Assembly (NCBI GenBank): GCA_016933955.1
Contig: JAFGTT010000032.1
Span: 124,001 to 188,000, forward strand
Origin: Candidatus Zixiibacteriota bacterium
Lineage (GTDB): Bacteria > Zixibacteria > MSB-5A5 > GN15 > PGXB01
Length of the DNA: 64,000 bases
Direction of reading: 5' to 3'
Part shown: positions 12,874-58,412 of the stretch, in pieces
How the letters are laid out: each line of letters starts with the position of its first letter
Position numbering within the stretch: the first letter of the stretch is position 1
Translations under genes and position numbers: made by a program
Notes under the pieces: model-generated
Database searches by the model: none
The model's input: only the letters and a program-made list of their open reading frames with translations
Told to the model about the DNA's origin: nothing

Positions 12874-14457
12874 TTATCTCCGTCTCTTCAAACTTGTCAG
12901 GGCCGAGCGGATTTCATCGATTTTGACCAAATATCCGATTCCGATATAAAATAAAAACGACAGCGCTCCGGCCCCGATCACCCGAAATTTGGATACCAGG
13001 CTCATACCGCCGTAAAAACCGGGCAGGCTATTATAAAACAGAGCGATCAGAACCATCGGTAGCGAAGCCAGCAAAATTCGCGCTATCAAAGAAGACATAC
13101 TCGCCAATCCGGTCAAATTCCCGCCGCGAACCAGAACCAGAAGAAGTAAACAAATCGTTGTCCCGGAGACAACCGAGGTGGCGGCCCCGATCCCGGGATA
13201 ATCGAACCAGGTCTTGAATAGGCCCGTCAGAACGAATTTGAGAACAAAGGCCAGGATGGAAATAAGCAGAACTTTCTTCTGTTGATTAACCGCGTAGCAG
13301 GCCTGAATCAGGATGGTGTATAAGAACATGAACACCAGGTAGGGAGACATGGTGGCCAGAATACGGGAGGTTATTTCCAGCGAATAAGCATTGAAGGCCC
13401 CTCGGAAAAAGACCGCGGCCGTAAGTTCGGCGGCAAAAAGAACATAAAAAATACCGCACGGCAGTCCGATCGTAAGGGCCAAACCGAGTGACGTTCTCAA
13501 CAGCGAAGCAAAATCGTTTTTACTTTTATAGTCCGCTCGTTCGCTTAAATACGGAAATATGACCGAGGCGATGGCGAAACCGGCAATATTGATCGGCAAC
13601 ATCACCAGCAGACTGCTGTAATTGAGAGCCGAGACTACTCCTTCGATCATCCCCGAGGCATAGTAACGATCGATCAGAAAAAAGGTGCTCGCTACCAGTT
13701 CTACCAGAATCAATATCCCGCCCACGCCCAGGACCTTTTTTATCTCGCCTCCGAAGATATTCAAATTGAAATATTTCAACTGCCCGAAATTGAAGGCTTT
13801 CAATATCAGGAAAATAATTTGCAGAACCATTCCGATCAGCAGGCCATAAAGTATGGCCGCTACCGACCATCGCCCCGAAAAAATATAGATAATCGTTATA
13901 ACCGTAATATTCAGAACGATTGTCCCGACCACCGGATAAACGAAATTCTTCTTAACATTGAGGGCGGAACGAAGAAAAGATTCCAGAAAACCCAGCAGAA
14001 GCATTACCGATATTATTCGGCAGAAAAACACTGCCCGGGCAAGTTCTTCGCCATCCAGTCCCGGTCCCACGGCCGATACCAGATACGGCGCCAGAATCGC
14101 CACCAGAAGAATAATCAGAAAGACCACCAATATCATGGAATTGAAGGCTGACCAGATGGCCCGCCGACCGGATATATCAGAGGTATTGGATGATGCTTGC
14201 CGGGTTAAAAACGGAACCGTCAGGAAATTGGTGGCCCGGCTGATCACCATATTCAAAAACACCGGCGCGGCAATGGCGATAAGGTATATGTCGTATTCGC
14301 GGGAGGTTCCGAAACGCTCGGCAATAACCATCTCTCTTAAAAAACCAAGCAGTTTGGAGATAATGACGATTCCCGAAACACCCAGAATCGCCTGTTTTAT
14401 TCCGATGGTTTTAACCAATTCAGTTATCCCGGAAATATGCTTTAATTGAAGCCGCAA
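12874..14457 (-). CDS. MurJ/MviN-type flippase (MOP superfamily), probable Wzx role
   Basis: A 527-residue membrane protein with about 14 predicted helices. The start contains SKLLGFLREMVIAERFGTS, very like the N-terminal motif of MurJ, and TRATNFLTVPFL-type segments follow (SRATNFLTVPFLTRQASS). MurJ flips lipid II; homologues inside polysaccharide clusters flip the lipid-linked repeat unit. Here the location between the epimerase and polymerase genes favours the latter, with a second, housekeeping murJ expected elsewhere. The start overlaps the end of the epimerase gene by 38 bases, indicating coupled translation. Confidence 0.82.
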   Translation of the reverse strand: MRLQLKHISGITELVKTIGIKQAILGVSGIVIISKLLGFLREMVIAERFGTSREYDIYLIAIAAPVFLNMVISRATNFLTVPFLTRQASSNTSDISGRRAIWSAFNSMILVVFLIILLVAILAPYLVSAVGPGLDGEELARAVFFCRIISVMLLLGFLESFLRSALNVKKNFVYPVVGTIVLNITVITIIYIFSGRWSVAAILYGLLIGMVLQIIFLILKAFNFGQLKYFNLNIFGGEIKKVLGVGGILILVELVASTFFLIDRYYASGMIEGVVSALNYSSLLVMLPINIAGFAIASVIFPYLSERADYKSKNDFASLLRTSLGLALTIGLPCGIFYVLFAAELTAAVFFRGAFNAYSLEITSRILATMSPYLVFMFLYTILIQACYAVNQQKKVLLISILAFVLKFVLTGLFKTWFDYPGIGAATSVVSGTTICLLLLVLVRGGNLTGLASMSSLIARILLASLPMVLIALFYNSLPGFYGGMSLVSKFRVIGAGALSFLFYIGIGYLVKIDEIRSALTSLKRRR

Positions 14458-18770: not shown

Positions 18771-20273
18771 TCAATCACTTAAATTATCGATTGCCAGGTA
18801 AATAATTCCGGCACTGCCAAGCATCATAACCACATCCTTAATCTTGTTCCAGGTACTTTTATCTGATTTTTCCTCAGGTATCAAAACGGCATCGCCATCA
18901 TAAATTTCGATCCTCGGGTCGGAGACCAAACGAATACCCGATGTCTTCCGAATCACTTCGACCGTTCCCTTCCGAGCCTTACTGGTATACCCCCCAGCTT
19001 TTTTAATCAAATCGGAAGCCGAACTGGGACCCGAAAGAGCTATCATGCCGGGATATCTAACCATTCCAAACACCCCGGCCGAGCCGGTCAGGGTCGGAAT
19101 GACAATGGAATCTCCGGGGAACACGGTCACGGACTTCAGTTTGTCGAAATTGGAACCGTCTATCCGGAGTGAAACCGGCGCCAATTCGGAATCAAATGAC
19201 AGGTTGTTGGTATTGGAGGCCGTCAGCATCCGGGCTGTTTCTTCATTATAACGAAACCGCTTATTGCGGAAAACGGTAATGGAGTTATAATCCGCTTTCA
19301 GGGTCAGTGATCCGGCGATTTCAATCGCCCCGGCCAGCGAAAGCGAATCATAATGCGGATAACGCCCCGGCACCCTTATTTCACCGGTGATCGAGAAAAA
19401 GTCGGCCTGTTGTTTTTCCATGGCGGGGCTGACGATTATTTTATCGCCCGGCATAATAGGTTGCCCCGAATCACTCAGGGGGACGGCCAACCGAGAGACA
19501 TGATCATCCTGATGGCGGAATATATAGGCTGAATCGCCTTCCAAACCGGTCAGACCCCGGGCCAGGGCGATTATGGAACCGAGAACATCACCCTCGCGAT
19601 ATTCAACACCGCCGGATTGATGCACCTCGCCCGAAATCTGGACAAAGCTCAGCGAATCCGTCACCAGAGGAATTTGAATTTTATGCCCGGCATACAAATA
19701 GGGATTGCAATCCAGATCACCGGCCCTTTCGAACCGAAGCATATCAATCAATTGCCCGTCGCCCGAGCCATTGCCATTGAAGATAATTTTGCGATGTGAC
19801 GCCCCGGGAAGTAAACCGCCCGCCATATTTATTATTTCCGAAACCCGCTGGGAAACGAACGCATCATAAAGGCCGGGGTTTTTTACGGCCCCGGCAATCA
19901 GGACTTTGATCGGTCGGATACCGATCAGGCTGATGGAAAAATCCCGGTCGGCATAAAAATGATCTATCAGACTCCTCAGTCTTTTCTTGGCTTCGGTCAA
20001 CGTTACCCCACCGACATCGACCCGCCCCATGGATGTCAGCAAAACGGTTCCCTCGGGCGTGACATCAAGATTCATCGGATTGGTCGATCCATCCCAGAAA
20101 TCAATCCGGAATTGATCGCCCGGTCCGATTATATATTGATTGGGGTCAATGACGGTACCGAAATTGATATCCTCGGCCACGGCGCAATTTTGTCTGACGG
20201 GAAATATGAATACCAAGACTAAAACAAGACAGGCATAAAAAAAGACCCTGAAGGTACAGTTCAATATCGCCAC
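18771..20273 (-). CDS. Polysaccharide export protein (Wza-like, SLBB domains)
   Basis: A 500-residue exported protein of the outer-membrane polysaccharide channel family. A signal peptide with hydrophobic core FYACLVLVLVFIFPV is followed by the export domain (YIIGPGDQFRIDFWDG, near residue 47) and then several SLBB-like repeats (VLIAGAVKNPGLYD, FSITGEIRVPGRYPHY, VFGMVRYPGMIALSG). The C-terminus ends in a hydrophobic helix, VVMMLGSAGIIYLAID, as in Wza-type channels. No convincing lipobox is seen, although a cysteine lies at residue 29. The start is GTG at 20273 with GGAG five bases upstream. It is the first gene of the cluster and has a clear promoter. Confidence 0.92.
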   Translation of the reverse strand: MAILNCTFRVFFYACLVLVLVFIFPVRQNCAVAEDINFGTVIDPNQYIIGPGDQFRIDFWDGSTNPMNLDVTPEGTVLLTSMGRVDVGGVTLTEAKKRLRSLIDHFYADRDFSISLIGIRPIKVLIAGAVKNPGLYDAFVSQRVSEIINMAGGLLPGASHRKIIFNGNGSGDGQLIDMLRFERAGDLDCNPYLYAGHKIQIPLVTDSLSFVQISGEVHQSGGVEYREGDVLGSIIALARGLTGLEGDSAYIFRHQDDHVSRLAVPLSDSGQPIMPGDKIIVSPAMEKQQADFFSITGEIRVPGRYPHYDSLSLAGAIEIAGSLTLKADYNSITVFRNKRFRYNEETARMLTASNTNNLSFDSELAPVSLRIDGSNFDKLKSVTVFPGDSIVIPTLTGSAGVFGMVRYPGMIALSGPSSASDLIKKAGGYTSKARKGTVEVIRKTSGIRLVSDPRIEIYDGDAVLIPEEKSDKSTWNKIKDVVMMLGSAGIIYLAIDNLSD

Positions 20274-20419: not shown

Positions 20420-21133
20420 ATGCAGTTAACTGTCCTAATGCCGCTTTATAACGAGGAATCCACGGCCGGGGAAATTATCACCGGCGTGCTTAATCTCGAT
20501 ATAGACCTGCAGTTGATTATTATCAATAATGCCTCGACCGACCGGAGCCCGGAGATCATTTCCAAATTCGCTGACCGAAGAAACGTTGAAATCATTACCA
20601 TGAATCGAAATATCGGCAAGGGCGATGCCATTATTGCCGGGCTGAAAAAAGCCGCCGGGAAATATACCGTAATTCAGGATGGCGATCTGGAATACGATCC
20701 CAAAGACATTGTCACTATGCTTGACCTGGCTGAACGAAAACAGGTTCTGGCTGTTTTTGGCTCCAGAATCCTTAATCCCGAATCAGGGATATCCTACAAC
20801 CGTTACCTCTGGGGCGGAAAACTACTGACTCATATTGCCAATATACTCTATGGTGCGGGGATTACCGATGAATCAACCTGTTATAAAATGGTCCGGACCG
20901 ATATTCTCAGACAACTCCATCTGGAAAGCAGGCGGTTCGAATTTTGTCCCGAACTGGTGGCCAAACTGAGCCGCAATAAAATAAAAATCCACGAGATACC
21001 GATTTCATATCACCCGCGGAAATTCGAAGAAGGGAAAAAGATTCGGGCCCGCGACGGTCTCGAGGCTATCTGGACCTTAATTAAATATCGCTTCAAGCCG
21101 CTTGCGGATTTTGCCGTGAAAAATAAAAACTGA
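20420..21133 (+). CDS. Glycosyltransferase family 2, dolichyl/polyprenyl-phosphate sugar synthase-like
   Basis: A 237-residue GT-A enzyme that moves a sugar from a nucleotide donor, often to a polyprenyl phosphate carrier. The nucleotide-binding start LTVLMPLYNEESTAGEI, the segment INNASTDRSPEII, and the DXD-like VIQDGDLEYDP (about residues 92-102) are clear, as is the acceptor-side SRRFEFCPELVAKL. No membrane tail is present, so it resembles the soluble DPM1-type enzymes. The start has no ribosome site and sits right after a -10 box. Its 3' end overlaps the convergent YfhO-like gene by 57 bases. It may feed a GT-C transferase with lipid-linked sugar. Confidence 0.9.
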   Translation: MQLTVLMPLYNEESTAGEIITGVLNLDIDLQLIIINNASTDRSPEIISKFADRRNVEIITMNRNIGKGDAIIAGLKKAAGKYTVIQDGDLEYDPKDIVTMLDLAERKQVLAVFGSRILNPESGISYNRYLWGGKLLTHIANILYGAGITDESTCYKMVRTDILRQLHLESRRFEFCPELVAKLSRNKIKIHEIPISYHPRKFEEGKKIRARDGLEAIWTLIKYRFKPLADFAVKNKN

Positions 21134-22807
21134 CAGACCGGCCAGCACCAGCAGACTGACAACCAGACCAAAAATAAAACCGCGGGGACGATACAACAAG
21201 GTAATCTGCCGGTCGTTATGTGTAAAACCTGTCGCCACCAGGCCGTTATTTTCGAAAAGCGGTCTTCCGTCCGCCGTTCTCCAACCGTCATCATAGCCGA
21301 TCCCGAAAATAATTGTCCCGGCCAATGCCGGGGCCAATCGGTAATCGACACGATTTGGAGTATACTGCCGGGTCAATACTCCGGCCTGCCCGGAGGAGAC
21401 ATATTCCATAAGGACCTCATTAGTCGGGGTCACCAATCCTCGGCTCTCTTTATAGGCCGACAGCCAGGGGGCCACCAGAGAACCCCGGTTTTTCAAAAAC
21501 AGGTTGTAGATATCATCGCGGCGGCCGATGACCTGCCGGAAATCCTCGTCAAAAGCAACATGGGCGGGTTTCTTATACTTAATTGTCTTCATGGCCGGTA
21601 GATTGACCAGAAAACCGGTCAATAATATCAAACAAATAATTGAAAGCGAAAGGGCATTTTTAACCGATGTTGCACTTTTTAATCGGGCGGTTAATACATC
21701 CAGACCAATACCAGATAATATTGCTGTCGCCAGAACCACAAATTGAAAGGTCCGGGCCGGCGAACGGATCGAGGAGAATCCCGGTATATGCAAAATAAGA
21801 TTCCAGGGTGAGAAATCCGAAAAATGACCCAGACCGAAAAGAAAAAAGAACAGCCCAACCACCAGCCAGGCCCGGCTTTTACGGAAAGCCAGAATAAGTG
21901 CCGCCACCGCCAGAATAACCGCCAGCGGCGATATGTAGGCGCTGTATTCATGCCAGCCCCAGTACTGACCCGAACCCGCCTGACGAAAAACAGCCTGATC
22001 AAACGAGAAAAAAGCTTTCCATAGTATATTAATCGGAGTGAAATCACCGGGCATGCCCTCCCATTCATTTTGCGACAGGTAATGAAACATCGGGAAAAAC
22101 TTCACCGCGCCCAGAAGCACACCGAGAATCACCGCTACAATAAAACGTTTAATCAGCCTCAAACTTTTTTCCTCGATAGCATACAGAATCAAGAGCACCC
22201 CGGAGAAAAAGCAGGTGTATAAAAAAGGTACCGCGGCCCCGTTACCGAGAATTATCAGCGCGACAGCCGCAATCGCCCCGGCCAGGAAACGCGAATCATC
22301 ATCGGTTTTTAAAAGGAAATATAAAAACCACGGTAAGAAACAAAAATGCGTGAAGGGGACATGGCCGATTGCAAAATGCAGGGCAAAATAGGAACTGCCA
22401 AAATAAACAAAGGCCGCCAGATACGATGCCAGAGGCGATCGACCCAGCCGTTTCGCCAACAACCAGGTCCCCCAAAAACCGAGAAAATATGCCAGCATCA
22501 TCTGTATTTTAAGCCCACCGATTGCTCCGAAAATTAAGATTAAAGGAAAAAAAGGCGATAGAATCCCGACTTCGGGATGAGCGAACAATATATTACCGCC
22601 TCCGAGATATGGATTCCAGAACGGGAATTGGTGGTAATGCAGAACGGTTCTTTGCGGGACGGCCGCCATGGTCGCAAACAACTCCCAGTCGCCGACACCG
22701 ATATAATCCCAGTTAATTAAAAATGGCAGGACAAATACCAGCGACACCATAAAAAATATAAGCGGCGGAATAAAATTCCGGGGGGATCTTTCCGTTTTGC
22801 TCGGCAT
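21077..22807 (-). CDS. YfhO-like multi-pass membrane protein, putative GT-C glycosyltransferase
   Basis: A 576-residue inner-membrane protein with about 12-13 hydrophobic segments. The first loop WDYIGVGDWELFAT and the next, FPFWNPYLGGGNILFAHPE, match the YfhO family, where an aspartate in the first outer loop is thought to act like the catalytic residue of GT-C glycosyltransferases. A soluble stretch at about 420-530 precedes a last membrane helix. In Gram-positives YfhO decorates surface polymers. Here the role is inferred only from family and from overlap, tail to tail, with a polyprenyl-phosphate sugar synthase-like gene. No ribosome site is evident in front of the ATG. Confidence 0.75.
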   Translation of the reverse strand: MPSKTERSPRNFIPPLIFFMVSLVFVLPFLINWDYIGVGDWELFATMAAVPQRTVLHYHQFPFWNPYLGGGNILFAHPEVGILSPFFPLILIFGAIGGLKIQMMLAYFLGFWGTWLLAKRLGRSPLASYLAAFVYFGSSYFALHFAIGHVPFTHFCFLPWFLYFLLKTDDDSRFLAGAIAAVALIILGNGAAVPFLYTCFFSGVLLILYAIEEKSLRLIKRFIVAVILGVLLGAVKFFPMFHYLSQNEWEGMPGDFTPINILWKAFFSFDQAVFRQAGSGQYWGWHEYSAYISPLAVILAVAALILAFRKSRAWLVVGLFFFLFGLGHFSDFSPWNLILHIPGFSSIRSPARTFQFVVLATAILSGIGLDVLTARLKSATSVKNALSLSIICLILLTGFLVNLPAMKTIKYKKPAHVAFDEDFRQVIGRRDDIYNLFLKNRGSLVAPWLSAYKESRGLVTPTNEVLMEYVSSGQAGVLTRQYTPNRVDYRLAPALAGTIIFGIGYDDGWRTADGRPLFENNGLVATGFTHNDRQITLLYRPRGFIFGLVVSLLVLAGLSVFIFHGKIRKRLEAIFN

Positions 22808-27551: not shown

Positions 27552-29465
27552 ATGAACAAGCAGGAAATTAATTTAAATGATTATGCCCGGCTGGAATCCC
27601 TGGGCTTCAAATGCGGGCTGGAAATCCATCAGCAGCTTAATACCCGGACCAAGCTGTTCTGTCATTGCCCGGTCGGGCTGACCAACGAACGACATGACGC
27701 CGAAATTCTCCGGCATATGCGGCCGACTCTTTCGGAATTGGGCGAATATGACGGCACCGCTCTGATGGAATTCAAGACCAAAAAAGAGGTTATTTACCGG
27801 CTCTACCGTGACCGGACCTGCACTTATGAAATGGATGATACACCGCCTTTCCTGGTCAACCAGGAGGCGGTCGATTATGCCATCCGGATCGCTCTCCTGT
27901 TTAACTGCAAAATCGTCGATGAACTTCATGTCATCAGGAAACAGTATCTCGACGGTTCGATTCCGACTGGTTTTCAGAGAACCATGATTATCGGTATCGA
28001 TGGCTGGATTCCCTTTAAAGGCCGGAAAGTTAAAATCACCCAGGTCAATCTTGAGGAAGAAGCCTGCCGTGAAGTTTCCGATATCGGACACCGAATTGTC
28101 TTTGCCACCGATCGGCTGTCGATTCCTCTGGTGGAAATAATTACCGAAGCGGCTATGAAAACACCCGTGGAGGCAATGGAAGTCTGCCGTCTGCTGGGTA
28201 ATTCCATGAAAATCACCGGTCTGGTCCGTAGGGGAATTGGAACGGTCCGTCAGGATGTCAATGTTTCCATTACCGGCGGTGATCGGGTCGAAATCAAGGG
28301 AGTCCATAAGGTCGGTAATATTCGCAAACTGACCGCATCGGAAGCTTACCGGCAAAGGGGATTGCTCGAGATCAAAAAAATCTTTACTGAAAGATTTCCC
28401 TCCGATATTGATATTCCCTTCAGGGAATCCAATTTAACCGCGGTTTTCAGTGGAACCGGCAATGAACTCGGCCGTCGACTCGAAAGCGACCTTCCCCAGA
28501 AGGTGGTCGGCCTCCTGCTTCCCCGGCTGGTTGATATTATATCCTATGAATTACAACCCGGGCGCGATTTCGGTTTCGAGCTTTCGGGGCGGGTCCGGGT
28601 AATTGCCTGTATCGACTCTAAGCCCAATTTATTTTTCTACTCCCAGCGGGAAAAGTATAATATCTCTGATAATTTATGGGATAAAGCCGTCGAGTCGCTT
28701 CAGCCCGGACGGGGTGATGATCTGGTGCTTATTTGCGGTACCTCAGGAGATGTCGCCACTGCCGTAAATGAAATAAAAATCCGCATTGTTGAATTGAAAC
28801 AAGGCGTGATTAACGAAACCCGGCAGGATATCAAGGACGGGACAACCGATTTCGAACGAATTCTCCCCGGTCCCGACCGCATGTACCCCGATACCGACCA
28901 TCCCCCGGTAAAAATCGTCCCGGAGAGAGTTGAAAATAACCGAGCCCAATTATCGGAACCATTATGGGAAAAACAGAAACGGTGGCGGGAAACGGGCCTG
29001 CATGAGGCGCAGGTAGCGGCCTTATCGCTTTCGCCCCGGGCTGACCTGTTTGACCGCCTGGCGGAAAATCACTCCATCAATCCCAAAAAGGCGGCCCATA
29101 TCTGTACCGACCTCATGGTCGGCCTTCGACGTCAGGGTCATCACCCCGAAAAAGGGGGGAACGATCAGCTATTTAATATTATCCGGGAATCCCTGGAAAA
29201 GGATTGGCCATATCAGCGGCTTAAAACTGCTCTTATAAAAGCGGGCGCCGGCACTGAAATCGACAGGACGGATCGGGAATTATGCGATTCTGATTTCGAG
29301 CTTTGCTGGAGCGAGGCCAGGAAAGATTTCAACGGTAATAAGGAACCCGATGCGACGGGGAAATTTAGGGACTATGTAGCCGGGAAGCTCTTAAACGGGA
29401 ACAGCCGAACCGGTGATATAATGTCAAGGATCAATACCCGCCTGGCCTCCGAGAAATTCGCCTGA
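27552..29465 (+). CDS. gatE: Glu-tRNA(Gln) amidotransferase subunit E, archaeal type
   Basis: GatE binds misacylated Glu-tRNA(Gln) and activates its glutamate for amidation; ammonia comes from its partner GatD. The 637 residues match archaeal GatE. The family signature GLEIHQQLNTRTKLFCHCP lies at about residues 21-39, and CTYEMDDTPPFLVNQEA, ITGLVRRGIGTVRQDVNVSI and the C-terminal helical YqeY-like tail (from about 480) are present. The AspRS-like insert lies roughly at 275-410. GatE is known mainly from archaea, where bacteria use GatCAB, so its presence here is unusual. No gatD is adjacent. The start has no ribosome site. It ends 20 bases from a convergent gene. Confidence 0.92.
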   Translation: MNKQEINLNDYARLESLGFKCGLEIHQQLNTRTKLFCHCPVGLTNERHDAEILRHMRPTLSELGEYDGTALMEFKTKKEVIYRLYRDRTCTYEMDDTPPFLVNQEAVDYAIRIALLFNCKIVDELHVIRKQYLDGSIPTGFQRTMIIGIDGWIPFKGRKVKITQVNLEEEACREVSDIGHRIVFATDRLSIPLVEIITEAAMKTPVEAMEVCRLLGNSMKITGLVRRGIGTVRQDVNVSITGGDRVEIKGVHKVGNIRKLTASEAYRQRGLLEIKKIFTERFPSDIDIPFRESNLTAVFSGTGNELGRRLESDLPQKVVGLLLPRLVDIISYELQPGRDFGFELSGRVRVIACIDSKPNLFFYSQREKYNISDNLWDKAVESLQPGRGDDLVLICGTSGDVATAVNEIKIRIVELKQGVINETRQDIKDGTTDFERILPGPDRMYPDTDHPPVKIVPERVENNRAQLSEPLWEKQKRWRETGLHEAQVAALSLSPRADLFDRLAENHSINPKKAAHICTDLMVGLRRQGHHPEKGGNDQLFNIIRESLEKDWPYQRLKTALIKAGAGTEIDRTDRELCDSDFELCWSEARKDFNGNKEPDATGKFRDYVAGKLLNGNSRTGDIMSRINTRLASEKFA

Positions 29466-32126: not shown

Positions 32127-32885
32127 TTAATCCGGATCGATCAATGGCATTATATGATTGGGATCGAACTTATCCTTAATCTTTAAAGAGTATATCGCGG
32201 ATTGATTATCGCCGGGTTTTTTATAAAGCCCGGCGAATTTCTTATATTCAATGGGCCTCATGGTTATCTCCCGGAAATCATCATAAACGGTCAGCGGCTG
32301 AATTCTGAAAACCGCCGATATTATCATCCCCAGGAGTCCCCATGACGGCGAAAAGATTTTCACAATATCCAACCCTGAGACCGATTTAAAACAGGGGGAT
32401 CCCGGTCTGATAACCCGGCCATCAGGCATGGCCAGTTGCGTCATCAGGAAATATCTCCCAATTGGAAGAACCTGCCCGCCATGATCGGCCGACAACCCCG
32501 CCGCCAGGGCACCGCCCACCGAACCGACATAAGGCAGTTCGGCATGAGGCAGAAAAAAACCCTCGCTTTTCAAATGATGATTCAATTCTCCTAAGGGATA
32601 CCCGGACCCCACCTCGGCATAATAATCCTGCGGGACAATTCTGATCAATTGATTCAGCCGATCCGAATGCACCGCCAGTAAATTATTGAATTTCCGTCCG
32701 ACAGGAGTAATATTATTACCGAAACCGGTAATATACAGTTTTTGTCCATGACGGCCGGCCAAACCAAACAGCCGGGACGCCTCCTCGGCCGTTTCGGGAT
32801 GAAAGGTGGGTATACCCTTCTGATAAGTCAACCGATCTTCCGGGAACTCTCCGGACAGAATCTCAATGAATTGTTCCAGATTCAT
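32127..32885 (-). CDS. Short FAD-binding (PCMH-type) oxidase-like protein
   Basis: A 252-residue protein with a PCMH-type FAD-binding domain like that of GlcD/GlcE and other FAD-linked oxidases. Signature segments are YITGFGNNITPVG (about 51-63), PYVGSVGGALAAGLSADHGG and FKSVSGLDIVKIFSPSWGLLGMI. The chain then goes almost directly to KIKDKFDPNHIMPLIDPD, which in GlcD-type enzymes is the very end of the cap domain. The substrate-binding cap domain of 200 or so residues is therefore missing. It could be a stand-alone FAD subunit, a GlcE-like partner, or a shortened relic. Reading frame and composition look intact. It is divergent from the first membrane-TPR gene. Confidence 0.8.
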   Translation of the reverse strand: MNLEQFIEILSGEFPEDRLTYQKGIPTFHPETAEEASRLFGLAGRHGQKLYITGFGNNITPVGRKFNNLLAVHSDRLNQLIRIVPQDYYAEVGSGYPLGELNHHLKSEGFFLPHAELPYVGSVGGALAAGLSADHGGQVLPIGRYFLMTQLAMPDGRVIRPGSPCFKSVSGLDIVKIFSPSWGLLGMIISAVFRIQPLTVYDDFREITMRPIEYKKFAGLYKKPGDNQSAIYSLKIKDKFDPNHIMPLIDPD

Positions 32886-32977: not shown

Positions 32978-35029
32978 ATGCGTATAAAAGACTTGTCCCG
33001 GCCCGGCGGTATAATCCTGATTATTCTTTTTGCCTTGAGATTTGTACCTTTCTTCTTCAGAGATGCACGCCTGTGGGGATTTAATCATCTGACTTTTCTG
33101 CCTACCGGTTATATAATTTTCTTCGCCGTAGTATCTGTTGCGGCGATTTTAATCATGTCTCTGCCGTTTGCGAGATCATGGAGTAATCGGCTGATCGACT
33201 GCTTCTCAAAAATCTTTTATGACTCCCGGAGAAAATACCTTAATCGATTTATCTTTATCGCCGTGATAGGTGCCATTTTTATCATCTTCGCGGCCCGGAC
33301 TTATTTCCTGGGTGACGGTTATACCATTCTGTCCCACCTGTCATCGCCGGTACCGACTATCTACAAATGGAGCGAACAGGGCGTCACAGTTATTATTAAG
33401 TCTATTATGAGCCTTCTCGGGGGCCGGGATGTTACCACCGTGCAATGGACTTTTCGGATTATCGCCTCGATTTCGGGTATGCTCGCTGTCTGGTTTTTCT
33501 TCCTGATCGCGGGCCTCCCGGAGACAGACAACAAAAAGCGTTTTCTAATTTTCATAACTTCCCTTCTGGGGGGGCATATCCTGCTGTTTTTCGGGAGCGT
33601 CGAAAATTATTCTCTGCTCTGGATCGGTCTGGCAGGTTTTGTCTATTACGGCTGGAAATACAGCGCCACGGGGCAGGCGCTGTTCCCGGCTCTTTTATTC
33701 ATGCTTTTCGGGATATTTATTCACCTGCAGTCGGCCATCATGATTCCGGCTTTCGTTTACCTGGTTCTATGCCGCGGAAAGGGCCATGAGATTTATCAAA
33801 GGTATAAAATGATATTTGCAATTGCGGCCGGATTACTTATGGCGTTGGGCGTGATTATTTTTATCCAACTATATACCAACAACCTATATTTCGAGCATAT
33901 CTTCCTTCCGCCTTTTTCCGGTAAACCATCGGTCCCCGATTATGCTATCTTCAGCCTCTCGCATCTGGGCGACTGCCTCAACCAGCTTATCCTTCTCTCG
34001 CCCCTTTTACCGCTGTTGATTATTCTCTTGGGGAAAAATATCAAATCCGTTTTTAAAGATCGGGCCGCGGTTTTTCTGGCTTTGCTGGGTGCCGCATCTC
34101 TTCTTTTTCTTCTGGTTATCGATCCCAAACTGGCTATGGCCCGTGATTACGACCTGCTTTCGCTTTCGGCCTTTGGATTCACTCTGTTTTTGATAGCCTT
34201 ATCGGGGCAAAAAGAATCGGACTCGCTTCGCGGGCTTTATCTGCCAGTGGCAATATATTTGATAGTCGCCGTCGTTCCCTACCTGATGACCAATCTGGAT
34301 CGAACCCGTTCGGAAGAATACATGAAATATATCATTCGCATGGATCCGGATAAATCAGCCCACACCGTCATCACCATGCGGGATTATTATCGCCGGGAGG
34401 GGGATATCCGTCAGGCTGATTCGCTTAATAATCTCTATGGACAGAATTATCCCAATCTCAACCGGATGTTCCAGGCCGGATGGGCCCTTGAAAATAACGA
34501 TTTCAGGAAAGCCGCCAGAATAGCCGAGACCATCACTCCCGATCGTTTTTCTCCCGTTTATCACAACCTGCTCAGTATGCTGGCCCTGCATCGGGGAGAC
34601 TATAACAAAGCTCTTGAGGAATCGGATAAAACCATACAACTGGGGTGGTACAACGTTTACTTCTTCCAGAGTCGGGCGATGATTTTCGCCTTCTTGAAGG
34701 ATTATGACCGGGCCATTGAAGCCCTGAACATCGGCGCCACTTTAGACAGTCTTAATCCCGGCCTGCTGGAGGGATTTGCCAGTATATATCTTTTATCGGG
34801 AAAACTCGATCTATCGGCGATCTATGCCTCCAAAATGATCACGGCTGATTCCGGTAATGCGGTCGGGTATTACCTGTTGAGTAAAATCAACGCCATGACA
34901 GACAATCTGCCGGAGGCACGCAAGTATCTTGATCTGTATCTCAAACACGGCTTATCTGATCCGAACTATGTTGCTCATTCTTCGGAGCTGACCGAACGGA
35001 TTAGGCAAATGCCGGAAACGGGAAATTAA
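32978..35029 (+). CDS. Multi-membrane protein with C-terminal TPR, paralog 1 (putative GT-C)
   Basis: About 683 residues. Residues about 15-455 hold some 11-12 membrane segments, and the last 230 residues are soluble with TPR-like repeats (PVYHNLLSMLALHRGDYNKA, YDRAIEALNIGATLDSLNPG). The first outer loop contains YFLGDGYTILS, where a conserved aspartate would sit in a GT-C glycosyltransferase. Other blocks shared with the next gene are RLWGFNHLTFLP, KWSEQGVT, NLYFEHIFLPPFSGKP and IDPKLAMARDYDLLSLSAFG. The family is not recognised. ATG at 32978 is preferred over a TTG at 32948; the ribosome site is weak. It is followed 9 bases later by its paralog. Confidence 0.8.
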   Translation: MRIKDLSRPGGIILIILFALRFVPFFFRDARLWGFNHLTFLPTGYIIFFAVVSVAAILIMSLPFARSWSNRLIDCFSKIFYDSRRKYLNRFIFIAVIGAIFIIFAARTYFLGDGYTILSHLSSPVPTIYKWSEQGVTVIIKSIMSLLGGRDVTTVQWTFRIIASISGMLAVWFFFLIAGLPETDNKKRFLIFITSLLGGHILLFFGSVENYSLLWIGLAGFVYYGWKYSATGQALFPALLFMLFGIFIHLQSAIMIPAFVYLVLCRGKGHEIYQRYKMIFAIAAGLLMALGVIIFIQLYTNNLYFEHIFLPPFSGKPSVPDYAIFSLSHLGDCLNQLILLSPLLPLLIILLGKNIKSVFKDRAAVFLALLGAASLLFLLVIDPKLAMARDYDLLSLSAFGFTLFLIALSGQKESDSLRGLYLPVAIYLIVAVVPYLMTNLDRTRSEEYMKYIIRMDPDKSAHTVITMRDYYRREGDIRQADSLNNLYGQNYPNLNRMFQAGWALENNDFRKAARIAETITPDRFSPVYHNLLSMLALHRGDYNKALEESDKTIQLGWYNVYFFQSRAMIFAFLKDYDRAIEALNIGATLDSLNPGLLEGFASIYLLSGKLDLSAIYASKMITADSGNAVGYYLLSKINAMTDNLPEARKYLDLYLKHGLSDPNYVAHSSELTERIRQMPETGN

Positions 35030-35038
35030 AAGGCAGTT

Positions 35039-37096
35039 ATGAATATGGGAGGCAGGCGCATCTTTACGGCCGCTTTCTCGGTTCTGGTGTTACTTGGCCT
35101 TGCCAGGATATATCCATTGCTGGACGAAGGAGTCAGATTATGGGGATTCAATCATCTTGACTTTTTGCCGGTCGTATGCCGGTACGTTTATATCATTCTG
35201 TTTGCCGCGATGATTATTCTGCCTTTTACGCGACTAACCAAGTCTATAGGCGATTTAATTACTGACAAAATTCCCGGCATGTTTTTTGAATCAAACAGGA
35301 AATGGTTATATCGCCTGATTTTTATCCTGATTGCCTTTTGTCTATTTATTATTTTTCGGTCACCGACCCATTTTCTGGGTGACGGTTATTCATCAATCGG
35401 CAATCTGGCGTCAGATACAGGCACATTCTATAAATGGAGTGAGATGGGTGTGACCCATATGGTCACATTTATTCAATCATTTATTGGTCCCAAGAATGGA
35501 AATACCGCTCGGCTGGCTTTTCAAATATTATCTTTCATATCCGGTGCGGTAACGATCTGGTTCTTTTTCCTGATATCGCAAATCATCTCAAATCGGAACA
35601 TAGTCAGGTTATTGACGTTCACCGTTATTTGCGTTTCACCCATTCTACTTCTTTTTTTCGGATATGTGGAATATTACCCGCCTCTCTGGGTGATTTTTTC
35701 GGCTTTTATTTACTTCAGTCTTTATTATCTGGTTCATAAGAAGCGGCTGCTTTTTCCGCTGCTGCTGCTAATCGCCGGAATGTTTATACATATGCAGATG
35801 GGGATTTTTATTGGCGCGTATGTTTTCCTTTTATTCTCAGGTGAGCGCGGTGGAGATATTTATCGCCAATTTAAGAAATCTATATGGATAGCCATCGGTA
35901 TCGTTATTTTAATTCTGGCGATCCTGTTTGTCAGAAAATACACAAGCAACCTCTACTTCGAACATATCTTCCTTCCAATTTTCCAGGGCAAACCGATTGA
36001 TCCATATTACCGGATCTTCAGCAGCAATCATCTTCTGGACATAGTCAATGAGTTGCTCTTGCTCTCCCCCACCCTGCCGATATTGATAGTTTTCTCTCTG
36101 CGGAATTTGAAGTTTACGCTATTGAATAAAACGGCTGTCTTTATCGGTCTGGTTTCATTAACCAGTTTTCTATTCCTGCTTACCATCGACCCGAAACTGG
36201 GCATGATCAGGGATTGGGATCTTTTTTCCCTGTCTTCATTCGGCCTTAGCCTATTTTTTATCATTATGATAGCAACGGATGAGACGAAAGGCGTGTGCCG
36301 ATTATATCCTTCCATGCTTATTTTATTACTCTGTTCAACCACGGCGTACCTTATGGTCAATCTTAATCGTGACAGGTCGATAGACTATTTTAATTATTCC
36401 ATCGACCTCGATGTTAATCGTTCGTTCTCCAGTCTTGTGATCCTTCATGATTATTATAAGAATCTGGGGGACGGGGAAAACAGGGTTGCGGTCAACAACC
36501 GCATAAAAAACGAATTCCCTGAAAAGCCGATGACCCATGCGGCTCTCGATCTTCTGGAGCAGCACAAAATTCATGAAGCCGAACAGATAATCAGGATGAT
36601 TACCCCGGATAGATATTCTCCCCAGTATCACAACTTAATGAGTATGTATTATATGGCTTTGGGAAATTATCCGCAGGCTCTTGAGGAATCCGACAAGGTC
36701 ATGCAGTTATCTCTGTATAATTACGTCTATCATCGCAATCGGGCCTGGATTTACACCGTAATGAATCGCGATGACCTGGCGCTGGAAAGTCTCAGAGAAG
36801 CATATAAATTAAATAACAGCAATCCGAGAACAATTGAAGGTCTGGCGGCTAATTTCCTGAAATCAAATCAATTTGACTCGGCCCGATTTTACTGCGAAGC
36901 ATTAATTACCCGAGATTCCACCAATATCGGTGGTTATTTCATTTTGGCCAGAATGTCTGTCCAATTGAATCAGCCTGTTTCAGCCCGAAATTACCTGAAA
37001 TTGTACCTGCGCTACGGATCATCGGATACCCTGAATGTAATGCGGGCAAATGAATTGATGAAAATAATTGACATTATCGAGGAAGGGAATAAATAA
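35039..37096 (+). CDS. Multi-membrane protein with C-terminal TPR, paralog 2 (putative GT-C)
   Basis: A 685-residue paralog of the preceding gene with the same order: about 12 membrane segments, then a TPR-rich tail of about 230 residues (QYHNLMSMYYMALGNYPQA, DDLALESLREAYKLNNSNPR). Shared motifs are RLWGFNHLDFLP, HFLGDGYSSIG, KWSEMGVT, GYVEYYPPLW, NLYFEHIFLPIFQGKP and IDPKLGMIRDWDLFSLSSFG. The invariant charged residues in the loops look catalytic or ligand binding. Architecture recalls TMTC O-mannosyltransferases of animals, which is an analogy only. AAAGG precedes the ATG, and a strong terminator follows, so the pair is a two-gene operon. Confidence 0.82.
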   Translation: MNMGGRRIFTAAFSVLVLLGLARIYPLLDEGVRLWGFNHLDFLPVVCRYVYIILFAAMIILPFTRLTKSIGDLITDKIPGMFFESNRKWLYRLIFILIAFCLFIIFRSPTHFLGDGYSSIGNLASDTGTFYKWSEMGVTHMVTFIQSFIGPKNGNTARLAFQILSFISGAVTIWFFFLISQIISNRNIVRLLTFTVICVSPILLLFFGYVEYYPPLWVIFSAFIYFSLYYLVHKKRLLFPLLLLIAGMFIHMQMGIFIGAYVFLLFSGERGGDIYRQFKKSIWIAIGIVILILAILFVRKYTSNLYFEHIFLPIFQGKPIDPYYRIFSSNHLLDIVNELLLLSPTLPILIVFSLRNLKFTLLNKTAVFIGLVSLTSFLFLLTIDPKLGMIRDWDLFSLSSFGLSLFFIIMIATDETKGVCRLYPSMLILLLCSTTAYLMVNLNRDRSIDYFNYSIDLDVNRSFSSLVILHDYYKNLGDGENRVAVNNRIKNEFPEKPMTHAALDLLEQHKIHEAEQIIRMITPDRYSPQYHNLMSMYYMALGNYPQALEESDKVMQLSLYNYVYHRNRAWIYTVMNRDDLALESLREAYKLNNSNPRTIEGLAANFLKSNQFDSARFYCEALITRDSTNIGGYFILARMSVQLNQPVSARNYLKLYLRYGSSDTLNVMRANELMKIIDIIEEGNK

Positions 37097-37123
37097 AAAC
37101 CCCTGCTTCAGGCAGGGGTTTTT
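37095..37123. terminator. Bidirectional terminator between paralog 2 and groEL
   Basis: AAAAACCCCTGC and GCAGGGGTTTTT (37095-37106 with 37112-37123) form a perfect 12-bp stem with a 5-base loop. The A and T flanks serve both converging transcripts. Confidence 0.93.
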
Positions 37124-37143
37124 GTCTTTGTTTCGAAACGCGA

Positions 37144-52939: not shown

Positions 52940-55900
52940 ATGTATTACTCCATAATGCGCTTTCAGCGATCAAGATTTTTGATTCTTCTAATGGCCGTCC
53001 TTTTCCTGTCTTTGACAGGGCAGGCGGTCGGATCTTCGAACGGAATCATCCGCCTGTTCGATTACATATCGGCCGGACCGGAACAAATGGGGATAAAGAT
53101 TCCCTTTTCACGTGCCGCCTATCAGACACTGGAAACAGCCCCGAAGAACATTTTTATGGACTTCCCCTTGAGTTTCGAGAAAAGAGTCGTTCTGGAACTG
53201 GAAAGAACCGCTATTATCACCCCCCACGCCAAATTTTTTGTCGGTAACCAGCCCTCCCTTACCCGGCCGGAAGTGATAATATATCGCGGTGAGGTGATTG
53301 ATCAGCCGCATTCCCATGTTTATCTGGCTTTCACCGGTCAGGGTTCCGGTAATGGTTATATTGAAATGGGTAACGGTGAATTGTATTACATCTCTCAACC
53401 GGCCCGGGACGTGGGTAAAAGCGCTGATTCCCGGCTGACCGTGTTTCAATCAACCTCCACCGGCGGGACACCGGATTTCGAGGAATTCTGCAAAGTTATC
53501 GATCCCGGTCTGGAAATGCCGGATTTGCGGGGAGCTAAATTCTATACCGACACCATTGCCGGTCCCTATGTGGCCGAAGTTGCTTTTGAGGGTGATCAGA
53601 CTTATGTCAACCTCTTTCCCGATATCACCGCCGCCCAGTGTTACATTATCCAGATGCTCGGCGCCGTCAGCGACATCTATATTCGCGATGTCGATGTTAA
53701 GCTGATGGTATCGTTTCTCCGCCTTTGGCCTGATGGGGGCGAACCGTTCAGCGCCGATGACATAGCCGGATTCCGTCAGTACTGGATGAGTAATCTCGAT
53801 CCGGAAAATTACCATATTATTCAGATGGTCAGTGCCCGGACCGATCTTGATTACGGCGGCGTGGCCTATCGAGTTTATACCTGTAGCGATTATTCTTACT
53901 CGATCATTAGTTGCATTACCGGCAGTTTCCCGTATCCCGTTCCCTTATGCGATGTTTACAACTGGGATATTAAAGTCATGGCGCATGAGATGGGTCATAA
54001 TTTCGGGGCTCCACATACTCATGACGCGGAATGGTTTGACCCGACTATTGATGACTGCGGTAACGGTATCCCCAGCCGCGGGACAATCATGAGTTATTGC
54101 CAGACTCATCCCGGCGGGGTCGGAAATGTGGATTTGAGATTTCACCGGGACATTCAGGGAATTATGGAGGATATGGTTGTCTGGGGAGGCTGCCACTGGT
54201 TCGACTGCAACAATAACGGCTATGACGATGACTACGATATTGCCATCGGTGTAAGTCAGGATGTCAACAGCGATGGTATTCCCGATGAATGCGAGGATTG
54301 CAATAACAACGGCATTCTGGATGATGTCGATATCGCCGGGGGCATGGCCGATGTCAATTACAACGGCACTCCCGATATGTGTGAGGACGACTGTAACGGC
54401 AACAGCCAGCCGGATGAACTGGAAACGTATTATCACCCGAGCAGGGATGAGAATGGCAACTGCATTCCCGATGTTTGTGATCCCGACTGCGATAATAACG
54501 GCATAGCCGATTTCAAGGAAATTGCCGACAGCACCAAAACCGATTGGGATAACAACGGGGTCCCGGATATCTGCCAGGATTGTAACGGCAACGATATCAC
54601 CGACTGGCTTGAGATGGATCGAGAGTTTGACCTTTTTGTCGCCGACGGTGCCGGTTATGTTCATGAATACGTCCATAACAGCGGACTGCCTTATCAACTC
54701 CTGGGAAGCGGCCAGATCAATTTCGCATCCGATTGCGTTTTCGGCCCCGATGGTATGCTGTATGTCACCAGTACCGGCGCCAACCTGATCGCTCGAATCG
54801 ATGTCGGTAGCGGAATAGTCTCGACTTTTGTTACCGGCGGTAGCGGCGGATTGGATATGCCGATGTTTCTCCGGTTTGGCCCCAACAGTAACCTCTTTGT
54901 CACCAGCTGGTCCAATGATTGCGTTCTGCGGTATGATGGAACCACGGGAGCCTTTATCGACACCTTTGTCACCCCCGGTTCGGGCACCTTGAGTAAACCG
55001 TACGGACTTGCATTCGGCCCCGATGACGATTTATATGTAGCCAGCAACAACAGCAAAATCCTTCAATTTTCGGGTAGCGATGGTTCTTTTATCGGGGAAT
55101 TTGTCCCGGCCGGTAATGGCGATTTGAGTTTTCCCCGTGGTCTGTTGTTCACCGATGATGGCGTCCTGCTGGTTGCCAGCTACAGCAATCATAAGATTTT
55201 GAAATACGACGCTTCCACGGGCGATTTTCTGGGGGTTTTCAATTATGCCGCCAGTGCCGGCAATCCCTTTGGTTTAATTACGGCACCCAATGGTAATATC
55301 TATGTCTCCAGGACTGCCTCGCCAACCCGGATCTATGAGTATCGTTATCCTGACGGGGTCTTTTTACGCTCGATGGTTCGCGGCGACAATGACCTTCCAG
55401 CCCCGGGCGGATTGGCCTTCAAACCGGGATCGGCCCTTGATCTTGATGGTAACTATATTCTGGACGTCTGCGATGCCTGTACCGATAGTGATGGTGACGG
55501 TTTCGGCGATCCCGGTCATCCGGAAAACACCTGCAAACCGGATAATTGCCCGGGAATTGCCAATTCCGATCAGCTTGACAGCGACTATGACGGTCTCGGG
55601 GATGCCTGCGATGCCTGCCCCAATGATCCTTACAACGATTACGATGGCGATGGTATCTGCGGTGATGTCGATAACTGCCCCACCCTGGCCAACAGCCTCC
55701 AGACCGATACCGATGAAGACGGCCTCGGGGATACCTGCGATAATTGCCCCGATGTTCCAAACCCCCTTCAGGCTGATACGGATAATGACTTCCGGGGTGA
55801 TACCTGCGATAATTGCACCGAAGAATATAATCCTGATCAGACCAATAATGACGACGATGAATATGGGGATGCCTGCGATAACTGCCCCAACGTCTCAAAC

Positions 55901-56218
55901 CCGGATCAGGCCGATAATGATGCCGACACCTATGGTGATGTCTGCGACAACTGCCCGGTAGATTATAATCCCGATCAGGCCGACACCGATGGCGATAATG
56001 TCGGCGATATCTGCGATTATATCTGTGGCGATGTCAACCATAGCGGCGGAGTCAATATTCTTGATGTGACCTATCTGATTAATTACCTGTATAAGAGCGG
56101 GCCGCCTCCCGACCCGGAGATATCGGGCGATGCCAATGGCAGCGGCAGTATCAATATTCTTGATGCTACTTACCTGATCAATTACCTGTACAAGAGTGGT
56201 CCGGCCCCGGTTTGCTGA
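52940..56218 (+). CDS. Large secreted metalloprotease (reprolysin-like) with propeller, TSP3 and dockerin modules
   Basis: A 1092-residue exported protein. Order: signal peptide (ILLMAVLFLSLTGQAVGSS), an N-terminal beta-rich prodomain, a metzincin catalytic domain with AHEMGHNFGAPHTHD (about 348-362, HEXXHXXGXXH) and a Met-turn candidate in GTIMSYCQTH, then Asp/Asn-rich repeats of the NGIPDECE kind (about 420-550), an NHL-type beta-propeller (about 560-835), five to seven thrombospondin type 3 calcium repeats (about 848-1025), and two dockerin-like halves (about 1032-1090). It should digest extracellular protein and need calcium. GGGAGGAACC precedes the ATG, and a terminator follows. Confidence 0.92.
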   Translation: MYYSIMRFQRSRFLILLMAVLFLSLTGQAVGSSNGIIRLFDYISAGPEQMGIKIPFSRAAYQTLETAPKNIFMDFPLSFEKRVVLELERTAIITPHAKFFVGNQPSLTRPEVIIYRGEVIDQPHSHVYLAFTGQGSGNGYIEMGNGELYYISQPARDVGKSADSRLTVFQSTSTGGTPDFEEFCKVIDPGLEMPDLRGAKFYTDTIAGPYVAEVAFEGDQTYVNLFPDITAAQCYIIQMLGAVSDIYIRDVDVKLMVSFLRLWPDGGEPFSADDIAGFRQYWMSNLDPENYHIIQMVSARTDLDYGGVAYRVYTCSDYSYSIISCITGSFPYPVPLCDVYNWDIKVMAHEMGHNFGAPHTHDAEWFDPTIDDCGNGIPSRGTIMSYCQTHPGGVGNVDLRFHRDIQGIMEDMVVWGGCHWFDCNNNGYDDDYDIAIGVSQDVNSDGIPDECEDCNNNGILDDVDIAGGMADVNYNGTPDMCEDDCNGNSQPDELETYYHPSRDENGNCIPDVCDPDCDNNGIADFKEIADSTKTDWDNNGVPDICQDCNGNDITDWLEMDREFDLFVADGAGYVHEYVHNSGLPYQLLGSGQINFASDCVFGPDGMLYVTSTGANLIARIDVGSGIVSTFVTGGSGGLDMPMFLRFGPNSNLFVTSWSNDCVLRYDGTTGAFIDTFVTPGSGTLSKPYGLAFGPDDDLYVASNNSKILQFSGSDGSFIGEFVPAGNGDLSFPRGLLFTDDGVLLVASYSNHKILKYDASTGDFLGVFNYAASAGNPFGLITAPNGNIYVSRTASPTRIYEYRYPDGVFLRSMVRGDNDLPAPGGLAFKPGSALDLDGNYILDVCDACTDSDGDGFGDPGHPENTCKPDNCPGIANSDQLDSDYDGLGDACDACPNDPYNDYDGDGICGDVDNCPTLANSLQTDTDEDGLGDTCDNCPDVPNPLQADTDNDFRGDTCDNCTEEYNPDQTNNDDDEYGDACDNCPNVSNPDQADNDADTYGDVCDNCPVDYNPDQADTDGDNVGDICDYICGDVNHSGGVNILDVTYLINYLYKSGPPPDPEISGDANGSGSINILDATYLINYLYKSGPAPVC
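55483..56010 (+). repeat. Tandem thrombospondin type 3 coding repeats
   Basis: Six or so repeats of about 70-80 bases, each encoding a variant of DNCPxxxNPDQxDxDxDxxGD. The DNA is only partly conserved (blocks such as TGCGATAATTGCCCC recur), as expected for old protein repeats rather than recent duplication. Confidence 0.85.
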
Positions 56219-56243
56219 AATTGGATTAAGTCTTTGTCCATTC

Positions 56244-56275
56244 AGGGGACAGCCGCCGGCTGTCCCTTTCTTTTT
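56244..56275 (+). terminator. Terminator of the metalloprotease gene
   Basis: GGGACAGCC and GGCTGTCCC (56246-56254 with 56258-56266), extended by two more pairs, form an 11-bp stem with a 3-base loop, followed by TTTCTTTTT. Confidence 0.9.
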
Positions 56276-56504
56276 GCCCCGTCACAGCAGAAAAACCGTT
56301 CTCATAATAGCCTTGACAACAGAGACATTTTTAGCTATATTTATTTGGTATTATAAAGGCACCGGAAAGTCATAACCTGGCTTGAACTCACAAATCCGGT
56401 CATTCTCTTGTTGTCAGAAAAATTGTAAACGATTTGTTGCTGATGGTGACTTTTAATCGGCTGTCACATTTTATGCAACTATAATATCGGCCGCAGTCCC
56501 CGTA

Positions 56505-58412
56505 ATGGAAGTGGCTGTCAACCCTGGCAGGGCAATCATGTATTCGGTCTTCGGGGCAACATTCCTGGCGCTGGCCATTGCGATATCGCCGTCCCAACCG
56601 GCCGAAGTAGATATTACTCCGGCTGTGGTCCTGGATATGCCGGACAGCCTGTTTCCGATTCAACTAGGTGATGATTTCCCAAAACTCTCTCCCGGATTAA
56701 TCTCGACCATGCCCTTTCGATTCGACGGCGACACCTTGCGTCTGCTGGTTATTCTTCTGGAATGGTCCGACCGACTCGGTACATACAGCCGTGAGACTTT
56801 CGACAGCCTTTTTTTTTCCAGGAATTACTTTCCCGGCAGCTCGATAGCCGATTATTATCACGAGGTTTCTTACGGAAACCTGGAAATCACCGGCGATGTC
56901 ATCGACTGGTACGACTACGGTCCCTACCTGTTACCGTTCGGCCTGAATCATTTCGAGGCCGTCCTGTGGCAATTGAATCCGGTCATTGATTATTCACAAT
57001 ACGATGGCAACGGTGATGGTCAGGTTGACGCCGTTATGATTATCCGTGCCGGCAATGGTATGGAAGACAGCGGCGATGACAACGATATCTGGTCCTACGC
57101 CGTCATTTACGGCCCCGGTTACGGGGTTGGACCGATGGATGGAGTGGGGATTATGCACTGGGCGACTTCGCCGGAAACGTTCCCGCTTCGCAATCCCGAA
57201 AATCCGCTGGAATTCACCGGCCTGAGTATTTTCAATTCCATCTCGGTGACCGCCCATGAACTGGCTCATCAGATCGGATTACCCGACCTATATGATTACG
57301 ATAACCGCCTCGATACGGCCAATTTCTCGATTCCCGGCGATATCAACGACCATCCGGTCATGGATTGGTGCCTGATGGGTCATGGCGGTTACGGGATCCT
57401 GTCAATTAAAAAATTCCTGCCGCCGCATCTGATCGGGTGGTGCAAAAAAGTCATGGGATGGATCACCCCGATCGAACTGACCGGTTCCTGTTATCACGGT
57501 TTGCCGGTCAGAGGTATTGAAATGAATGACGACAGTTCTCTATATATGATTCCGATTGATGCCGCCGAGGGAGAATATTTCCTTCTGGAATATCGGAATC
57601 CCCGGTCAAGTGGTAAGTTTGACAAACTGGATTCCGATTTCAGTGTCTTCTTCCGGCCATACCTGGCCTTTGGAGCCGATTCCCTCGACCGCGGCCTCCT
57701 TATTACCCATGTCCATGATTCCCTACCGACCAACTGGTGGCGGCTCAATTATGGTACCCCGCTGTATTCGCATTACACCGTGGCGGTTATGGATGCCGGC
57801 TATAATCCTGAGTACCCGGTCGAATTTAATCCGGAAGGCCATGTCACCGACAGCGCCCGCTGGTGGTATCCTTACGAAACCCGTAAGTCGGCCCTTTTTA
57901 AGGATGATGTTCCCGGCCAGAAATCGTTCACACCGCATACTTTTCCCTCAAGCGATGGATATTACGGACCTACCGGGATATCGGTCACAGTCGATTCAAT
58001 AATCGGGGACCGTCTTTATGCAGATATAATGGTTGACCGGGATGACGACGGTATTCATGACCAGGCCGACAATTGCCCGGAAATAAGCAATCCTGATCAA
58101 CAAGACCGGGATGGCGATGAAATCGGGGATATCTGTGATAATTGTCCGTCTTATTCAAACCCGGACCAGATTGACAGTGATGGGGACGGAACCGGAGACG
58201 CCTGCGAGTATATATGCGGCGATGTTAATGGCAGTGATCAGGTCAATATTCTCGATGTTACTTTTTTAATAGCCTACCTCTATCGCGACGGCCCGCCTCC
58301 GGCGATGGTTGAGGCCGGCGATGCCGACGGCAATGGCGCGATTAATATTCTTGATATGACGTATTTGATTAATTATCTTTATAGAAACGGACCGGAACCG
58401 GTTTGTTCTTAA
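56505..58412 (+). CDS. Secreted M6-family metalloprotease with TSP3 and dockerin-like modules
   Basis: A 635-residue exported protease of the immune-inhibitor-A type. A signal ([19 protein letters not shown]) is followed by the M6 domain: [40 protein letters not shown] and the zinc site [20 protein letters not shown] (about 247-266). A beta-rich region leads to two TSP3 repeats (about 508-565) and two dockerin-like halves ([14 protein letters not shown] and [14 protein letters not shown], about 575-633). The ATG at 56505 is used; one at 56538 is possible, and neither has a strong ribosome site. The shared C-terminal modules suggest the same surface location as the protease upstream. Confidence 0.92.

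Follow-up and report, generated by a model that had tools for sequence, protein, structure and literature searches.

A tandem gene pair of Zixibacteria that probably encodes GT-C_A glycosyltransferases with a periplasmic tetratricopeptide repeat tail

We analyzed a stretch of 64,000 nucleotides from Candidatus Zixiibacteriota bacterium (contig JAFGTT010000032.1, positions 124,001 to 188,000; hereafter the window), which encodes two adjacent membrane proteins in the open reading frames (ORFs) ORF1 and ORF2. Structure prediction and sequence comparison indicate that both are probably members of an uncatalogued family of GT-C_A glycosyltransferases with a tetratricopeptide repeat (TPR) tail in the periplasm. 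A sequence-only reading of the window had described two adjacent genes of the same plan, each with a TPR tail and a set of shared loop motifs. Both reading frames are indeed open and complete, the two proteins are paralogs with 40% identity over 678 aligned residues (E=1e-166), and all the quoted motifs (RLWGFNHL, FLGDGY, KWSE.GVT, NLYFEHIFLP and IDPKL) were found. TPR models match the C-terminal parts of both proteins, and the strong Pfam and NCBIfam matches are confined to these parts. Neither a Pfam or NCBIfam model nor any named family of the libraries searched corresponds to the membrane part, and the literature searched contained no paper on this family in Zixibacteria.

Predicted fold of the membrane part

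The full-length model of ORF2 reached a pLDDT of 95.1, and its Foldseek search returned TPR proteins only, among the matches listed. Because the TPRs dominated this search, the membrane part was modelled separately (pLDDT 94.5, pTM 0.93). With this second model, the first 17 matches in the PDB were all GT-C_A glycosyltransferases, each with a probability of 1.00. The best match was AglB (5gmy; E=1.1e-3), followed by PglB, ArnT, STT3, AftB, ALG12 and Pmt4, and more Pmt, STT3 and PIGU entries were found further down the list. The many hydrophobic helices would also fit a transporter or a secretion factor outside the GT-C class, and secretion systems often contain TPR proteins. Yet transporters reached a Foldseek probability of at most 0.16 in the same search, against 1.00 for the GT-C proteins; the transporter reading is refuted unless the model is wrong, and we consider an origin outside GT-C extremely improbable.

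The GT-C_A module consists of a first transmembrane helix (TM1), a juxtamembrane helix with an aspartate at its tip (JM1), a second juxtamembrane helix (JM2), TM2 and a TM3 in two pieces (PMC12041299, PMC12041525); all GT-C_A enzymes carry an essential aspartate at this tip (PMC12041299). By helix order along the chain, the ORF2 model presents the same TM1-TM7 core, in which JM1 and JM2 separate TM1 from TM2 and TM3 is kinked: TM1 spans residues 88-105, JM1 116-124, JM2 133-149, TM2 154-183 and TM3 187-198/201-206, and TM4-TM11 extend to residue 441. D115 of the FLGDGY motif stands immediately before the helix 116-124 and so at the tip of JM1. The core is preceded by two extension helices (residues 3-27 and 45-63 in the model). 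Conservation-averaged hydropathy and positive-inside charge, with which the structure models agree, yield 13 membrane helices with the N-terminus inside and the TPR tail outside; the sequence-only reading came close with about 12 segments, and the model supports its proposals of a GT-C fold and of a catalytic position for the FLGDGY aspartate. Prediction and comparison thus show that the membrane part of ORF1 and ORF2 has the GT-C_A fold, that the conserved polar residues face the periplasm and that the TPR domain follows the last helix.

We also compared the family with known GT-C sequences. Profile-profile alignment with 37 proteins that PMT_2 (PF13231) searches had recovered from the source genome and related ones yielded a probability of 94.6% (single comparison, E=7e-8), relative to 0.7% for the reversed family profile. 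The similarity spans core TM2-TM6, and in the extended alignment D115 falls on the first-loop aspartate of the TPR-tailed PMT_2 proteins. E. coli ArnT aligned with this TPR-tailed group at 82.6%, which is about the same as our family against that group. The membrane part of ORF2 presents no Pfam match and does not reach the curated PMT_2 cut-off; matches above this cut-off were obtained for 2 of the 87 family members (best E=7e-5, with no correction for the 87 scans).

Several results weigh against the assignment to GT-C_A glycosyltransferases. The Foldseek E-values are modest and all exceed 1e-3, and the query TM-scores of the top matches range from 0.32 to 0.47, for which reason we regard the structural similarity as a remote match. 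The hhalign comparisons with single PMT_2 subgroups were weaker (74.6, 23.5, 4.8 and 0.4%), E. coli ArnT alone did not match the family (0.8%) and the profile of the membrane part matched no PDB sequence even at E=10. The pairing of D115 with the PMT_2 aspartate appears only when the alignment is extended past its confident part. Finally, the family loci present no adjacent conserved polyprenyl-phosphate sugar synthase: the neighbor check that the sequence-only reading had proposed for such genes yielded a single related GT2 glycosyltransferase, 8.7 kb away in locus L047.

Conserved residues and a subfamily without the aspartate

Conservation was assessed on 82 sequences collected by whole-protein similarity, without use of the motif. 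D115 is present in 68 of 76 sequences, so that the FLGDGY aspartate, which had been singled out as the residue to follow across homologs, has not been generally lost. R391 (82/82) and P344 (82) are invariant and H331 is nearly so (80). In alignments A2 and A3, LFFGY.E.Y was itself the pattern by which the loci had been gathered, and its conservation there was excluded as evidence.

Eight homologs lack D115. Seven of them form one clade of orthologs from seven genomes (L003, L156, L162, L178, L181, L183 and L186), and the eighth (L190) branches separately. The clade includes a third paralog of the source genome (L003, G000:C12:4494-6587, also recorded as L195:4494-6587), which comes after a recR-like gene. 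The members of the clade present Asn (as in L003), and once Ser, at the position of the aspartate; in PimE, the same change from Asp to Asn abolishes activity (PMC12041525). All eight proteins also lack K132, H251 and D394, and all retain R391, D334 and Y324, whereas E211 and H331 are mostly retained. Three sister proteins of the clade keep D115, yet K132 and D394 are already missing from them. This pattern is suggestive, without statistical proof, of a stepwise inactivation in one branch, amounting to about one event plus L190. Because the losses fall mostly in one clade, we did not take the Fisher p-values for co-loss as significance. Judging from these substitutions, the clade likely represents an inactivated subfamily of pseudo-glycosyltransferases, and the joint loss of D115, H251 and D394 fits an active site in the remaining members.

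The D115-less clade could also be taken to suggest that the GT-C fold serves more widely as a non-catalytic scaffold, as does PIGU in the glycosylphosphatidylinositol (GPI) transamidase. PIGU is itself among the structural matches (7wld_U and 7w72_U, with probabilities of 0.69-0.80). However, ORF1 and ORF2 retain the equivalents of D115, H251 and D394, residues that were lost jointly in the clade, and we find a scaffold role unlikely for this pair.

Distribution, genomic context and possible acceptors

The family was found in 113 of the 133 genomes of the Zixibacteria phylum, with 1-10 copies each. Its named relatives are mostly Zixibacteria, and some belong to Gemmatimonadota, Latescibacterota, Krumholzibacteriota and one Calditrichota bin. 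Of 78 loci, 14 contain tandem arrays, with up to four copies. ORF1 and ORF2 belong to separate groups of the tree, each of which is represented in the tandem pairs of two other genomes (G010 and G014), indicating that the duplication is old. The copy number and the tandem expansion suggest that the paralogs may differ in acceptor or sugar. Two further tandem membrane proteins of 697-698 residues (L199:3860-8101), which match PMT_2 weakly and have TPR-like tails, apparently represent a tandem GT-C family of their own in the same genome.

The start of ORF1 is most likely the in-frame ATG about 11 nt 3' of a GGAG-like site, as in the sequence-only reading, although the longest frame opens at a TTG (Table 1), and ORF2 begins 9 nt after the stop of ORF1. 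The genes on both sides lie on the opposite strand, with 32127-32885 upstream and groEL downstream, in agreement with the lone two-gene operon described by the sequence-only reading. The strong terminator that it placed at the end of this operon was also recovered as a strong inverted repeat; it is bidirectional and also closes the convergent groEL. The upstream gene encodes a FAD_binding_4 protein of 252 residues, which is shorter than GlcD/GlcE. Such a short FAD-binding protein, encoded on the strand opposite to the family gene, is a conserved neighbor in 12 loci; a GT4 glycosyltransferase is found in 11 loci and other GT-C-like proteins in some. Further upstream, 27552-29465 encodes an archaeal-type Glu-tRNA(Gln) amidotransferase subunit GatE in a bacterium; it scores above both NCBIfam cut-offs, and loci L036, L042 and L047, which are syntenic, encode it too.

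Table 1. Positions in the window of the gene pair, its predicted parts and related features
Feature	Position	Strand	Basis or remark
ORF1, GT-C_A-like membrane domain and periplasmic TPR tail	32978..35029	+	683 residues from ATG 32978; 693 residues from TTG 32948
ORF1 FLGDGY, proposed catalytic base	33305..33322	+	Asp codon 33314-33316; position by ORF1-ORF2 alignment, putative role
ORF2, paralog of ORF1, the modelled protein	35039..37096	+	685 residues
ORF2 N-terminal extension, residues 1-84	35039..35290	+	two membrane helices and WGxNHL loop, ahead of GT-C_A core
ORF2 GT-C_A core, residues 88-441	35300..36361	+	structure model, Foldseek
ORF2 FLGDGY, residues 112-117	35372..35389	+	D115 at the tip of JM1
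ORF2 H251, periplasmic turn of core TM5-TM6	35789..35791	+	lost together with D115
ORF2 RDWD, residues 391-394, periplasmic loop of core TM9-TM10	36209..36220	+	R391 invariant
ORF2 TPR tail, residues 444-685, predicted periplasmic	36368..37093	+	TPR models, topology, structure model
Intrinsic terminator between ORF2 and groEL	37093..37125		bidirectional
GT2 resembling polyprenyl/dolichyl-phosphate sugar synthases	20420..21133	+	AglJ, DPM synthase 5mlz, ArnC

If the proteins act as GT-C_A enzymes, their sugar donor would be a polyprenyl-phosphate-sugar located in the outer leaflet of the inner membrane. D115 would serve as the base on the acceptor hydroxyl, and K132, H251, R391 and H331 might bind the phosphate or the sugar of the donor. 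An entry arch could be formed by the loop between core TM7 and TM8, and the periplasmic TPR tail would bind or position the acceptor. The source genome encodes GT2 proteins that resemble ArnC and DPM synthase, and the GT2 of the window, which lies 12 kb upstream and is no direct neighbor of ORF1, is a possible candidate for the synthesis of the donor. No member of the GtrA flippase family was found in the source genome. The acceptor may be a protein or an envelope glycan.

An envelope glycan or glycolipid, through the decoration of lipopolysaccharide, capsule or exopolysaccharide, would correspond to the role of ArnT, AftB and PimE; we regard it as possible, with a likelihood slightly short of even. 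ArnT and AftB are among the nearest solved folds, other GT-C genes adjoin family members in several loci, and the GT4 found in 11 family loci points in the same direction. Moreover, 10-20 kb upstream of the pair, the window encodes a polysaccharide export protein (SLBB/Poly_export; 18774-20273), a MurJ-like flippase (12877-14457), the GT2 and, adjoining it, an AftD-like GT-C protein (21077-22807; PF11847, E=1e-7). On the other hand, the family lies outside the polysaccharide cluster, and in the window it stands between housekeeping genes (gatE, groEL and a coaX-like gene).

A protein acceptor would imply a periplasmic O-glycosylation like that of TMTC or Pmt, in which the TPR tail recognizes exported substrates. 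The tail lies on the acceptor side, as in TMTC (PMC7801869), and 1-10 paralogs per genome would be in keeping with a diversity of protein clients. Also encoded in the window (52940-58412) are two large proteins that look secreted and combine peptidase-like parts with thrombospondin type 3 repeats and a type I dockerin domain at the C-terminus; they are possible clients of an envelope modification. However, TPR tails are also present on ordinary PMT_2 enzymes of the source genome, and the family loci showed no genomic connection with a secreted protein or a secretion machinery; we hold a protein acceptor to be possible, at appreciably less than an even chance. A broader scenario, which we consider rather unlikely, is a periplasmic protein glycosylation across the phylum, in which arrays of TPR-tailed GT-C proteins would act on different exported proteins and the dead D115-less paralog would serve as a partner or substrate presenter.

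Taken as likely GT-C_A glycosyltransferases, these proteins constitute a large and nearly phylum-wide family of sugar transferases that is unnamed beyond its TPRs in the libraries searched. This suggests a heavy investment by Zixibacteria in the glycosylation of the envelope or of proteins. The family offers a testable set of catalytic residues, and the D115-less clade provides a natural dead-enzyme control.

Comparison with known GT-C systems

The polyprenyl-phosphate-sugar users ArnT, AftB, ALG12, Pmt4 and PimE share with the family the GT-C_A module and the aspartate at the tip of JM1, and structural matches were obtained for the first four. They differ in their C-terminal domains, and E. 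coli ArnT presents no direct sequence match. The best structural matches of the membrane part are the oligosaccharyltransferases (OSTs) PglB, AglB and STT3, in which a soluble OST domain stands in place of the TPR tail and for which no sequence similarity was found. The TPR-tailed PMT_2 proteins have the same succession of a GT-C membrane part, an aspartate in the first periplasmic loop and TPRs. Relative to them, our family possesses two extra N-terminal helices with WGxNHL, FLGDGY in place of VDS/VDE, and the RDWD loop.

The sequence-only reading had likened the pair to TMTC1-4, the protein O-mannosyltransferases of animals, and had taken a bacterial counterpart to be new. Full-length TMTC-like proteins with GT-C and TPR parts have already been reported in prokaryotes (PMC7801869), and the source genome itself encodes at least three PMT_2 proteins with TPRs (G000:C15, C26 and C38), so the claim of novelty does not hold in this form. 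The family shares with TMTC1-4 the 11-helix GT-C core, the lumenal TPR tail, the long lumenal TM7-TM8 loop and a conserved Arg between TM9 and TM10 (PMC7801869); TPR models identify the C-terminal TPRs, and charge bias and the structure model place them on the lumenal or periplasmic side. This overall order of parts, the same in both, speaks for orthology with TMTC (GT105-type). Yet none of the 87 family members matched PF08409 (TMTC_DUF1736, the TM7-TM8 loop) below E=0.24. None of the 133 phylum genomes exceeded its cut-off either, which is weaker evidence than the member scan because the PF08409 control genomes also gave nothing. The DD motif and the SHKSYRP of EL1 are replaced by GDGY, with its single aspartate, and K-W-S/T-E, and the proteins have 13 helices rather than 11, the last 11 in GT-C order behind the two extra N-terminal ones. 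These differences largely refute orthology, which we consider very unlikely, and membership in the TMTC type is not supported. By analogy, the family plausibly works like TMTC, yet it should not be classed as TMTC.

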